Origin: Xiphydria camelus
Lineage: Eukaryota; Arthropoda; Insecta; Hymenoptera; Xiphydriidae
NCBI GenBank assembly: GCA_963678675.1
Contig: OY783192.1
Span: 35,991,250 to 36,055,249, forward strand
Direction: 5' to 3'
DNA: 64,000 bases
In this document: in pieces, positions 836 through 62,300 of the stretch
Numbering within the stretch: position 1 is the first letter of the stretch
How the letters are laid out: each line of letters opens with the position of its first letter
Translations under genes and position numbers: made by a program
Notes under the pieces: model-generated
Database searches by the model: none
Seen by the model: only the letters and a program-made list of their open reading frames with translations
What the model was told of the DNA's origin: nothing

Positions 836-2610
836 TCAGTGGCTCTGTCCAGTCAACGCGCCTTTTTTCTTCTGTGCTTTTCTGTGCTTCCCCTTCTTCT
901 TAAGTAACTTCTCCTCTTCTTCCTCTTCCTCCTCATCATCAGAATCTTTACCTTCCATTATCATTTTTTTCCGCTTATTTATAGACTTTCTTTCGAAAAA
1001 ATCTGTCTCGTCCAGTCTTATTTCCGCCTCGCATTTCGTCATAGATATATGCGTGAATATCGTGACAATCTCTTTATCTAAAAGCAGGTAAAACACCGTC
1101 AATATTACGATGTAAATTGACAGAGTGGTATGCTCTGTTGAGTTTTACCGTCTATTTTGTATTGCGTCAGCTTGACTCCTATGGCATCCTCTATCGCGTG
1201 CAGAAGCTTAATATCGTGCGGAGTAATTAAGCTGATGCTCGTGCCGCCCTTGCCGGCTCTCGCGGTTCTACCGACTCGATGAATGTAGTCCTTCGGAACA
1301 TTCGGTATCGTGTGATTTACGACCAGTTCCACCATAGGGATATCCAAGCCTCTAGCCGCCACGTCGGTAGCGATCAGAATTCGCACATGATTAGATTTGA
1401 ATTTACTTAGAGCCGCTAGCCGTTCCCGTTGCTTTATCATAGCATGCAGAGCTACATTACGGAAGCCCACTTCATTCAGCGTCATCGACAATAGTTGGCA
1501 TTGTCTGAAAATAAAACGCGTTAGATGCAGTCACGATAGTAGCCTGAACGATTCACCTCACGAATTTGCGAGTTGTCATTACTTGCAGGTGTCCGTGAAT
1601 ATCATGATCGAACCATTCTCGTAATTACCGCGATAAGTTCTGATTATTTCCACGAGAAACGCATCTCGCGTCTCTTTGGGTGTTAGGACGTATCGCTGGT
1701 CCAATTCTTTGACGGTTGCCATGCTTGTATCATCCTTTGATTCCCAGACAAAAACCTGCAAGGAGGGAGTACAATTTAACAAAATGAACGCGAAAATTTC
1801 ATTTGAGAGCTACGACATTTGATCGCGTACATTGTTTGAGGCGATTTGCTTCACTTTGTCCAAAGTATCTGTAAGAGTGGCACTGAAGAGTAGACATTGC
1901 TTCTTCTTGGGTAGTGCGCGAAATATAGTTTTAATCTGGTTGTCAAAATCGCCGCCCAATAGTCTATCCGCTTCATCCAAGACCAAAAATTTAATCCTTT
2001 GGAGGGAAAATGTATCGCAACTTTGCAAATGGTCAGCCAGACGTCCGGGAGTTGCTACTATGATATGTGGTCGTTTGGCAAGTTCCTGACCTTGAATTAT
2101 CATGTCCATGCCGCCGACGATAACGCATTTCTTCAGATTAATCGCCTTACCTATCACGGCAAATTGATCTGTTATCTAAATGGGAAAAATATATTCAAGA
2201 TCCCCACTAAATTAATTTTATGATCCAGGCAAAACATTCGAAACTCACTTGGAAAGCTAATTCCCTCGTAGGCGTCAATACCAGGGCAAATATTCCATAA
2301 GGATCCTCGCATAGCTTTTGCAAAATCGGAAGAACAAATGCAAGAGTTTTACCGGTACCAGTTTTGGAGCATCCAATACAGTCTTCGCCAGCCAAGATAT
2401 GTGGGATACAGTTTTGCTGAATGGTTGTCGGCTCCTTTAATCCTAATAATTTAATGTGAGTCAACTTGTTGTCATTCTAAACGTAATAATACCACATTGA
2501 ATTGAGCGTTAGATTCTGCACTAACCTATCGAATTGCATTGCGAGACGATCCAAGAGTTCAATTTTAAATCGGCAAACGAAGTAATAGTTTTCTTCATTT
2601 CAAGAGACAT
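836..2610 (-). CDS. DDX49: ATP-dependent DEAD-box RNA helicase DDX49 (Dbp8 family)
   Basis: The family comprises nucleolar RNA helicases for small-subunit ribosome biogenesis (yeast Dbp8). Six coding exons splice in frame: 2610-2526, 2442-2249, 2175-1831, 1755-1583, 1504-1149 and 1077-836, giving 464 aa against 483 in human. Motifs in order are the Q-motif (PTTIQQ), Walker A in [28 protein letters not shown] in [25 protein letters not shown] motif V read as [14 protein letters not shown], and [10 protein letters not shown]. The tail is Lys/Glu-rich with a run of acidic residues and ends at TGA. Intron 1 must use the acceptor next to 2442, because this restores [15 protein letters not shown], the expected family sequence; an upstream AG would break the frame. 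It lies about 600 bp downstream of CXXC1 on the same strand. A decayed copy of its 5' end sits at 47.4-47.9 kb. Confidence 0.95.
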
Positions 2611-2828
2611 CTTTTTTATACATAACACACAACTTATAGTTATTTTCGTTATGAAACCGAGTATTCGGCACTGAGGCTGTGTTCCAATCCGACAAAAGTC
2701 GCATTTAGTATGTTTGTTCCAACCGTTCCAACCGACGATTCCGGAACTGTCGCGAAACTAGTGGGATCGGTTTAATGCGCAGGCGCGGTGTGATGGAACG
2801 TGCCAATTTGCAACGTCACAACGCATAT

Positions 2829-47000: not shown

Positions 47001-47605
47001 CGCCGAGAGGAATAATTGCTGGTGTCGAAAAAACATTTTCTTCGATCGAAAACAATTACTCGAGCCCGTCAAATATTTTCTTCGCGCGAGAAAATAAAGA
47101 ATTTGTATTTAAAAAAATTGGGATTCTCTTGGTCGAAGAGCGCATATTTTTGATTCAAGAATATCTTCGTTGGAATAAAAGTTGCTTCCTAAAATAAAAA
47201 ATATATGAACTAAGTAGGTACTCTGTTTGGAACTTTAAATGTTATTTACCACAACTGACCGAGTCAACCGCAGAAGTACTACTAACGACACGTGCGCATG
47301 TGAAGGCTCAACCTTTCCGCCAGCAGCACTGTCGCAAGCACCCTTGTACGAGGGTCTAGTCGGTACGATTGCGTAAACAGAAGCACGTGTCAATTTCTCC
47401 ACGTTTAATAAATGCCTGAAGTTGTGTGTCATAGGTATATAAAAAAGATGTTATTTGAAATGAAGAAAACTATTGCTTCTGTGGCGACCCGTCACGCTAC
47501 GACGGCCTGTCGCCAGATGGCGCCGATCCTCTCGGCCATCGACTCCGCGGCTCCCGGCCCATGGCTCTCGGCTTCTCGTTAGTGGTCCGACAACGGGCAA
47601 GTTAC

Positions 47606-47636
47606 TATATAAGACCGTAACTGCCCATCACTCAGT
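47606..47636 (+). promoter_or_regulatory. LTR core promoter (TATA box and initiator)
   Basis: TATATAAG at 47606-47613 is followed by TCAGT at 47632-47636. The predicted start A at 47634 is 28 nt from the TATA box. This defines the U3/R border of the LTR. Confidence 0.7.
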
Positions 47637-47645
47637 GAGGAGTCA

Positions 47646-47720
47646 CGGAGCGTTTAGACGCAGGAGTCGGCCTAGCCTTACTGACGAGTCCACGGGCCGA
47701 CTCCAGGACGAAACGCTCCG
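47646..47720 (+). ncRNA. Hammerhead self-cleaving ribozyme (type III layout)
   Basis: All core elements occur in order. Stem III is CGGAGCG (47646-47652) with CGCTCCG (47714-47720). The U-A pair and cleavage-site U are at 47653-47654. The CUGANGA box is CTGACGA (47681-47687), stem II is GTCC/GGAC (47688-47691, 47706-47709), and GAAA is at 47710-47713. Predicted cleavage is after 47654. Loop I GGAGTCGGCC (47663-47672) is perfectly complementary to loop II GGCCGACTCC (47695-47704), a strong candidate tertiary contact. Stem I is the weakest helix (three pairs, one of them G-U, then an internal loop). It lies about 12 nt past the predicted LTR transcription start. Confidence 0.88.
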
Positions 47721-48030
47721 CCACGAGTTGGCGAACTCACTTTTCGTTCGCCACACTTCGTTTGCCGATTTAAAATTGAACTCTTGAATCGCCTCGCAAT
47801 GTAATTTGAATACTTTATGGAGAACCTAACGCTCAATTTAGTTTGGTTTTATTACGTTTAGAATGACAGCATGTTGACTCACATTAAATTGGCGAGCTTC
47901 CTCCCCTTACCATGCCTCGTGTTAAGACCTAATTATAAACACAGTCTGAAAAAACCTCGGATTTCCGCCTAATGATATAAGATACTATTCTCGCACGAAA
48001 AAAACTGTGGCTCGATCCTGGAATTATATA

Positions 48031-48185
48031 TGTGCCCATAAGTATGAAAGTGGTCTGTCAAAATTAAAAAAAAAAGAGTTTATCTGTTATTAATTTAGTT
48101 TAAAATAATGTGGTGTGAAATAACTGATAAACTCATTTTTTTTTAATTTTGACTTATATAGACCACTTTCATAATTATGGGCACA
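48031..48185. mobile_element. Palindromic MITE, TGTGCCCATAA ends (155 bp)
   Basis: The left end TGTGCCCATAAGTATGAAAG and the inverse of the right end (TGTGCCCATAATTATGAAAG) pair over about 65 bp, including GTGGTCT, A-rich tracts and GAGTTTATC. TA flanks both ends, which fits a Tc1/mariner-derived MITE. It is nested in element B. Confidence 0.8.
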
Positions 48186-48406
48186 TACATAAATATGTAT
48201 GTAATATTTGAAAATATATTTGACGGGCTCTCGAGCAATTGTTCTTCTCTTTCGTGCAGAAAGAACTTTTTACACCAACGAATTCTTTCTTGAATCAAGA
48301 ATACGTATTCTTCGACCAAGAATCTGTATTCTTAAAAATTTGTCAGATCACGTGTTTTCTTAATTAAAGAAATATTTTTTTACACCAACAATTATTTCTC
48401 CCAGTA

Positions 48407-59376: not shown

Positions 59377-62300
59377 TCAGACGACACCCCTGACGCGTAG
59401 TTGCAGCAGTCCGGCGAGCGCGCTGGTGAATCCCGCGTTGTAGTCGAGCGTCACCTCGGTGTAGACGTAGTCCTCCCGCTGATCCTGAAACTTGTCGGCC
59501 TCGTCGGGTCCCGAGACGAGAGCTCCGTAGAGCACTTGAGGGTTCGGCGAGTCCTTGTCGAACTCGGGCCAACCGCAGGGCGCCGGTCTGTCGGGGCACG
59601 ACGACGCCGCGTGATGCGGTTGCCTCGGGGGGTCGTAACCCCAACCGACGACGTAGCTTCTGCCTGTGTGACAGGGATCGAGCGTATCGGAAACCGAACT
59701 TCGCGGAGTCGACGAGGTGGGATGCGGGGGTCTCGCGCGTCTTACCTCCACCGCCCAGCATATAGTGGATTTGCTCCTCGGCAAATCGACGATACTCCCG
59801 CGGATCCCCGATCCCCGACGCGTCCGCCGCTTGCAGGCAGACGAACGCCACGTTGGCCGCGTGACAGAGGGTGCCGAATTTGTCGATGTAGAGCAGCCCC
59901 TTCGGGGTGCGCTTCTGCTGCCGGGCGGAAAAGTCGCAGAAGGCTTGCGCGGCGTTCTGGTACTCCGGCTGGCCGGTCGTCTGCGCCAGGAGAACCTGCG
60001 GGGTGTGCGACGAATGCGATCGGTTGAACGGATGGGACTTCTTCGTTCATTCTCGTCTTCTTTTTATCGCGACGACGAGATATCTCGCGGATTTTCGTAG
60101 CTTGCGAAGTTAATTCTACCGGACTCGCTCACCTGCACTCCGGCCACCTTCTTGTTGTAGAAGAATTCATTGGGTCGCTCCTTCAGGTGAAAGTGCTGGT
60201 AGTGGTGTTCCGCGTCTTCGAGGTATCGCGAGTCGTTGGTGGCTTTGAAGAGCCAGGCCGCGGCCCAGGCCAACTCGTCGCCGTAGTCCGTGCTCTCGTA
60301 GTACTGAGCCGCTCCGCGTATCGCCTCGTGGTAGAGACCGCGATGATTGTTGGCGAATTTGTAGAGCTCCTTGGCGTGTCGAAGCAGCTCCGAGCTGTAC
60401 TCGGGGTCGGCGTCTCTGAAAACGACGCTGGACGCCGCCAGCGCGGCGGCCGTTTCCCCGGCGAGATCCGAACCTGTTTGAAGATTTTTCGGCTCTGGTA
60501 TAGGGGTCACGCTTCGAGGGAGGGAGGGAAAATTACAGATATCTCTGTATTCTTTCGATATTTGTTCAATGAATCTATGATTTTTATAATCAGCGTGAAA
60601 AAATAGGTGAGATGAGGATGATCGAGAGTTCGAATCCAGAGATCTTGATTTTCGCGAAAAACTGAAGAAAAAATGTGAAGGGAAATTTTCGTGAAAATCG
60701 AAATCTCTAGAATCGATCGCTCAATCTACTTGTCTTGTGAATTTTTTCGTGTTGATTACAAAAAGCACGATTATTGTGTTTTCACATCAAAGGAAATATT
60801 ATGAGATATCGGCTCGAGACATTTTTTATCAGAAAATCATCGATACGTCGGTGTTCTTTTGATATTGCTGAATAAATCTATGATTTCTAGATTCAGTATA
60901 AAAAATTACACAAGATAGGGTGGTCCAGTGTTCAATTTCCGAGGTATCGATTTTCACAAAAATTCTTGCGAAAATAGAAATCTCTGGAATCGATCGCTCG
61001 ACCCGCCTATTTTATGTGTTTTTTCGCGCTGATTACGAAAAGCACACTTACCAGGTCAATGTCTAGAGGGGAATAGAAAATATCAGTGGATTTGCGAGAC
61101 ACTGAATAGTGCTGAAAAAAATGCGAAAAATCGAAATCTCTGGAATCGGTTACTCGACCACCCCATCTTGTATGCTTTTTTTCACGCTGATTACAAAAAA
61201 AAACACGGTCATCATGTTTCCATCTCGAAGGATGTAATAAAATATCAGTGATTTTCCATACGGAATTTTCTGAACGCCACGGATGAGTCACGTTCTCTCC
61301 ACTCGATTCCAATCGAGCCTTCGGTTAATCAATTCGAGTCGTTGTCTCCCGACGAGCACTGCCAGTGTCAGCGCGGACTCGAATTTTCCTCTCTTCGAGA
61401 GAGAAATATCTCCGGGAACGATCGAGACGCGCGGGGGTTACAATACCCTCGCACCTCCGGACCTCATCGACCACGCCTACCGATCCGCCTATGACTGGTA
61501 CCTATTTAGATCTTTTATCGTCCAGTCATTCATCCACCCGACAGTATTTAATTCCAACTCGCGAGACCCCGATAGCCTTCGTCGGGTTTTACAAAACGCG
61601 CGACCCCCGCATGGTGATCGTGAAACGCGCGTTGACCGAACCTGACGCTCCGGTGCGGTCGAATCGTCCGAGACACCGCGATTTTCCTCCACAACGACGG
61701 TTTCAAACTTATCCGAAGGCTGCTCAGCGATAAATTATATTTTTTTTACTCGAGGGCTCCAACGACGTACGCCTGGCGCGCGGGCATCGACGATTTCCCG
61801 GAATGTACTTTCCCCGCGGCGAATCGTTAATCGGCATCGATCATTACCTGGATGATCCGGGTCTATCTTGTAGGGAGGCCGCGTGGTGTTGAGCTCCTCC
61901 GGTCGTCCCCAGAACGTGTGATCGAGGGAAAAATCACCGACCTGTCCGTAAAGAACGAACTCGCTGACGTGACACTTGACGAAGTAGTCGGTCGCCCATT
62001 TAATGGCCTTTCGCAGTTCGTCGAGTTGGCCCGCAGCGGCGTAGCCCTCCGGCCAGCTGACCGCGCCCCAGGCCAGGAGGGTAGTGGTGGACGCCATTGT
62101 GAAACCGAACTTGACGAAATCACCGGCTGCGGCGATGGAAGGAGAAGGAAAAAGTAGAGCGCCCCCCGACTATTCCACGCGACGACGACAACACAATTAC
62201 TCATCGATCGGCGCCGATTTTCGTAATGTGCCGCGATCGCGCGCGCGAGACAGAGCCCTCCGCGCCTTCCTACCGTCGTAGTAGCCGCCGGTGAGATCCT

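Follow-up and report, generated by a model that had tools for sequence, protein, structure and literature searches.

A solo LTR carrying a predicted type III hammerhead ribozyme marks a hymenopteran retroelement family built like plant LTR retrozymes

The window, by which we mean the whole 64,000-nucleotide stretch of DNA analysed, comes from the hymenopteran Xiphydria camelus. Glycosyl hydrolase family 9 domains lie in hymenopteran DNA at 60064-62169, and an LRRC47 gene, with its two exons joined, matches Cephus cinctus best (72%), followed by sawflies and parasitoid wasps; among the 120 of 334 matches listed, the first named non-hymenopteran is Anabrus simplex (57%). A repeat of about 190 bp occurs twice, at 2448-2635 on the minus strand and at 47419-47890 on the plus strand (86.5%), and inside one of these copies lies a solo long terminal repeat (LTR), whose features are collected in Table 1. 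Downstream of it is a palindrome (48024-48192) with arms at 48024-48075 and 48141-48192 (83% over 52 nt) and an inner pair at 48057-48091/48119-48153 (94%), possibly a small foldback element. Inverted arms at 47062-47190 and 48213-48321 (64 nt at 77%, 18 nt at 94%) surround both the LTR and the palindrome.

Table 1. Positions in the window of the solo LTR, its insertion site and its predicted promoter and ribozyme parts
Feature	Position	Strand	Basis
Solo LTR, 276 bp	47480..47755 (C6:36038729-36039004)	+	Ends, duplication, empty site, genome match
Left CTTC target site duplication	47476..47479	.	Empty site with single CTTC
Right CTTC target site duplication	47756..47759	.	Empty site with single CTTC
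Terminal inverted repeat TGTGGCGA	47480..47487	+	Complementary to TCGCCACA
Terminal inverted repeat TCGCCACA	47748..47755	+	Complementary to TGTGGCGA
Paralogous empty site (flanking repeat without insertion)	2448..2635	-	Alignment to joined flanks
TATA box TATATAAG	47606..47613	+	Motif; not in every subfamily
Initiator TCAGTG, predicted A+1 at 47634	47632..47637	+	Motif; start site is an inference
Helix III 5' strand (U16.1 = 47653)	47646..47653	+	Core pairing
H17: U in the window copy, C in the majority of descriptor-passing copies; cleavage predicted on its 3' side	47654..47654	+	Descriptor
Helix I 5' strand UAG, pairs with UUA at 47678-47680	47655..47657	+	Fold
Loop 1 arm of loop-loop pairing GGAGTCGGCC	47663..47672	+	Complementary 10/10
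CUGANGA box (CTGACGA)	47681..47687	+	Descriptor
Helix II 5' strand GTCC	47688..47691	+	Fold
Loop 2 arm of loop-loop pairing GGCCGACTCC	47695..47704	+	Complement of loop 1 arm
Helix II 3' strand GGAC	47706..47709	+	Fold
GAAA box	47710..47713	+	Descriptor
Helix III 3' strand (A15.1 = 47713)	47713..47720	+	Core pairing

An earlier, sequence-only reading had proposed a solo LTR with 8-bp inverted ends and a CTTC duplication, and the window itself bears this out. The two ends are complementary at 8/8 positions, and the LTR flanks, when joined over one CTTC, match the minus strand of window 2635-2448 at 86.5% across 193 alignment columns with the junction intact. Because this paralogue has one CTTC and no element, it proves that a 276-bp insertion took place and duplicated the 4-bp CTTC. 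The window holds one pair of such inverted ends with a duplication spaced 150-600 bp apart, and 100 simulated windows hold 0.17 on average and 2 at most, so that these two features alone would be weak support. The G+C content is 61% within the LTR vs 41% and 33% in its flanks. An LTR end followed by TGGC occurs nowhere within the window.

The LTR had also been credited with a full hammerhead core. Its parts do stand in type III order (helix III, UH, helix I, CUGACGA, helix II, GAAA, helix III) and match a type III descriptor, composed after the motif had been seen, that requires at least 3, 3 and 5 pairs in helices I, II and III. This descriptor is matched once in the window, in 0 of 20000 shuffled LTRs and once in total in 300 simulated windows; the single simulated match is lost when helix II must reach 4 and helix III 8, or loop-loop pairing 6. 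The word "full" needs qualifying, in that this copy has a GUU triplet and only three pairs, one of them G-U, in helix I, both of which are traits of a variant subfamily. Decay of the window copy was considered as the source of GUU and rejected, the triplet being present in eight of the 24 intact copies. Rfam gives the window copy 22.4 bits for Hammerhead_3 (cut-off 48.5). A register suggested by Rfam, with the cut after the GUC at 47666-47668, was rejected because it leaves UUA between helix I and CUGACGA and because the GUC subfamily confirms the other register.

Upstream of the ribozyme, the predicted A+1 lies 12 nt from where the hammerhead begins (47646) and 21 nt from the expected cleavage site at 47654/47655. 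TATA box and initiator were found together in 0 of 20000 shuffled LTRs and seven times across the whole window on both strands. The proposed order of TATA box, initiator and a hammerhead about 12 nt past the start thus describes the window copy; it does not extend to all subfamilies. TATA[AT] and TCA[GT]T are both absent from all five 214-bp LTRs of the two-LTR copies described below, and the LTR of a sixth such copy (L314) has only TATAT among the promoter motifs sought; the TATA/initiator promoter is therefore not general to the family.

The LTR was then compared with the host genome (357,211,407 bases in 38 contigs), which returned at least 42 further matches besides the window copy, the full-length ones at 89-95%. 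This count is a lower bound, as 40 of 1579 candidates were scored, and three of the 43 matches are partial. The sequence-only reading was to be given up if no further copies shared these ends and carried 4-bp duplications, but such copies exist: the duplication at the mapped end is exact in 20 of 39 fetched copies vs 26 of 1482 in a control whose left four bases were taken from other copies, with one of the 20 (L269) fitting only with a shorter end. The exact core pattern CTGANGAGTCC N(3-30) GGACGAAAC occurs 636 times in the genome (312 and 324) and the reversed pattern 0 times; among 100 of the 636 places listed there are 15 same-strand core pairs 629-865 bp apart. Pattern scans of IMG/VR for relatives gave 0, 3, 117, 4 and 0 matches, with no relative recognised (10 of the 117 read by eye), and a scan of GTDB contigs gave 0. 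Seven of 116 core matches agreed with a type III descriptor, and comparison of the LTR with 234 DNA stretches yielded three matches of 19-50 bp.

Thirty pattern loci were fetched, and six distinct two-LTR copies were found among them (L301, L306, L308, L312, L314 and L317), each with an interior, a tRNA-Trp primer site and a G-rich tract; the earlier reading had advised looking for two-LTR copies and their internal region, primer-binding site and polypurine tract. Five have 214-bp LTRs ending in CGCCAAA (one has TTGCCAAA on the 5' side), and L314 has 250-bp LTRs with the ends of the window copy (TGTGGCGACC...TCGCCACA). The 18-nt primer site TGGTGACCCCGACGTGAT begins one base past the 5' LTR in 6/6 copies and is the complement, 18/18, of the 3' end plus CCA of a host tRNA-Trp gene that ARAGORN identified in one of the three genomic stretches given to it. 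The G-rich tract GGGGGGAGTAC precedes the 3' LTR in all six (L314 has one G more). Target duplications are exact in 5/6 and match at 3 of 4 positions in L306, while the LTR pairs of the six copies differ at 3, 1, 1, 5, 3 and 0 sites. The interiors measure 563, 571, 568, 446, 386 and 651 bp and are mutually alike, with internal repeats. Ribozyme cores lie 636-865 bp apart, intact in both LTRs of five copies and damaged in L312. A retrozyme-like anatomy, with ribozyme-bearing LTR pairs, primer site and tract, is thus seen in six copies. Stop-free frames run through four of the six interiors (188 codons in L308, 184 in L306, 181 in L317 and 142 in L312; G+C about 60%), so that the interiors are not necessarily non-coding; the frames recall the one that NbRZ1, a plant retrozyme, is reported to have. 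Outside the LTRs, long hairpins at L308:558-666 and L306:259-460 match miRNA precursor families below cut-offs.

The ribozyme core is kept in many copies. With the window copy included, 24 of 40 LTR copies pass the full descriptor (16 with GUC, eight with GUU) and the other 16 fail, mostly through single changes; among distinct cores of the pattern loci 28 of 31 pass (26 GUC, one GUU and one GUA without a normal helix I). The commonest form reads GAGCGUC^UAAGGC-loop-GCCUUA CUGACGA GUCC-loop-GGAC GAAA CGCUC (^, predicted cut), with a GUC triplet, a 6-bp helix I (UAAGGC/GCCUUA), a 4-bp helix II and a loop-loop complement of 11 bases, and is a predicted textbook type III hammerhead. Loop 2 has 14 nt and the loop-loop pairing 10-11 bp; contacts of the plant type (a 4-nt loop 2, non-Watson-Crick) are not found.

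We therefore read 47480-47755, with a probability of about 0.7, as the solo LTR of a multi-copy, non-autonomous hymenopteran LTR retroelement built, and most likely working, like a plant LTR retrozyme. RNA synthesis would begin in the LTR upstream of the type III hammerhead, in which 10-11 Watson-Crick pairs would lock loops I and II, and the ribozymes of both LTRs would cut. These cuts would release an RNA made up of a single LTR and the interior (636-865 nt in the six copies), with a 5'-OH and a cyclic phosphate and without a terminal repeat; a ligase or the ribozyme itself might close this RNA into a circle. In NbRZ1 the ribozyme lies downstream of the transcription start and cleaves off the 5' end (PMC12029980), and in plants the lost terminal repeat is resolved by circles copied with Gypsy machinery (PMC4918200). 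In the insect, tRNA-Trp would act as primer for the reverse transcriptase of a Gypsy-type helper, whose integrase would insert the copy with a 4-bp duplication. Such a helper is likely, because Gypsy has been suggested as the helper of Helenus elements in animals and one Nasonia Gypsy uses tRNA-Trp (PMC10886601). The family is built, and would work, like an LTR retrozyme with different loop contacts, and would count as one provided that circles form. The fuller picture appears probable too, if slightly less so: animals would have LTR retrozymes of their own, here a hymenopteran family both recent and numerous, whose textbook type III hammerheads are held by 11 kissing-loop base pairs and which moves via circular RNA with tRNA-Trp as primer, next to a Gypsy relative whose LTR bears the same ribozyme.

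That relative, an old one (L281/L282, C14:17095206), supports the strongest competing account, which we consider unlikely: the LTR would belong to an autonomous Gypsy-type lineage with short derivatives, and the ribozyme would trim the 5' leader or make the 3' ends of a linear RNA, with no circle. Its LTR is 89% identical, its primer site is the same, and broken gag- and pol-like frames lie behind it (DUF7041 at E 2.6e-24; protease and reverse transcriptase matches under Pfam cut-offs). However, C3 of its ribozyme is changed (TTGACGA), no 3' LTR was found within 9.6 kb, and cuts in both LTRs would remove the terminal repeat required for ordinary strand transfer (PMC4918200). The six interiors have only the 18-nt primer site in common with it.

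An inert ribozyme, the hammerhead boxes being there by chance in a conserved LTR hairpin, is clearly less probable than this. It agrees with the minimum free energy fold, a hairpin nesting the loop-loop pairing at -31.8 kcal/mol vs -15.8 kcal/mol for the ribozyme fold, the latter value excluding that pairing because the program scores no kissing pairs. It agrees also with Rfam, whose gathering score was reached by none of the sequences searched: L314 obtained 21.9 bits for Hammerhead_1 (cut-off 34, E 0.0048), and five two-LTR loci searched together gave no hammerhead at E<=0.1. Yet young copies keep a complete core, GUC, a 6-bp helix I and a 4-bp helix II, and relative to the commonest form 12 of 439 core sites are changed in the 40 copies vs 167 of 2351 other ribozyme sites, which, with subfamilies and shared descent pooled and kinship ignored, is only a hint that core sites change less than the rest of the ribozyme. 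Ginger-like DNA transposons have TGTNR ends and 4-bp duplications, and the window copy has inverted ends, such a duplication and inner TGGCGA motifs (a number reached in 135 of 10000 shuffles), but for the family a transposon is refuted by the six copies with direct LTRs, primer site and G-rich tract.

Among known systems, the retrozyme-like reading places the family closest to plant LTR retrozymes, which have a type III hammerhead in each LTR, 4-bp duplications, a primer site, a purine tract and solo LTRs (PMC4918200, PMC12029980), and whose similarity to Gypsy is described as confined to the primer site (PMC4918200). The insect family, known here from DNA alone, shares all of these, and its cut-to-cut distance of 636-865 bp compares with 697-776 bp in Jatropha. 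It differs in its animal host, in tRNA-Trp rather than the tRNA-Met of plants, in LTRs of 214-276 bp and in the 10-11 Watson-Crick pairs between loops I and II. Published animal retrozymes are likewise non-autonomous hammerhead retroelements, but of type I and non-LTR (PMC7229834, PMC11722881), described as tandem repeats without LTR, primer site or purine tract (PMC7229834); the contrast drawn by the sequence-only reading between type III in plant LTRs and type I in animals matches these accounts.

The hymenopteran TRIMs PbTRIM (PMC3532108) and Helenus (PMC10886601) are small LTR elements with 4-bp duplications and solo LTRs. They differ in that the available text on PbTRIM lacks the word "ribozyme" (PMC3532108) and Helenus LTRs carry a tRNA-like promoter (PMC10886601); an ARAGORN scan of our window, which a decayed tRNA could escape, found no tRNA. 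Type III hammerheads with Watson-Crick pairing between loops 1 and 2 have been described in fly and termite DNA and in termite and toad delta-like RNAs, where the pairing is about 4 bp, the termite genomic motifs are isolated with no recognisable ORF, and the reported structure search lists none in hymenopterans (PMC7936874). What is new is therefore the LTR setting only: of the distinct insect class that had been proposed, the LTR placement stands as new and the type III hammerhead was already known from insects. We found no animal LTR with a hammerhead among the listed results of open-access literature searches, and reviews assign LTR retrozymes with type III to plants and non-LTR, type I retrozymes to animals (PMC7761336, PMC11722881, PMC12029980). 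One of them refers to unpublished work, in preparation, on insect elements carrying type III hammerheads, so that others may know such elements, and suggests that plant LTR retrozymes may have come from insects (PMC7761336). A hymenopteran LTR retrozyme family would break the split between plant, LTR, type III and animal, non-LTR, type I elements, supply a vehicle for the type III hammerheads of insects, and be relevant to how delta-like and viroid-like circular RNAs arose.
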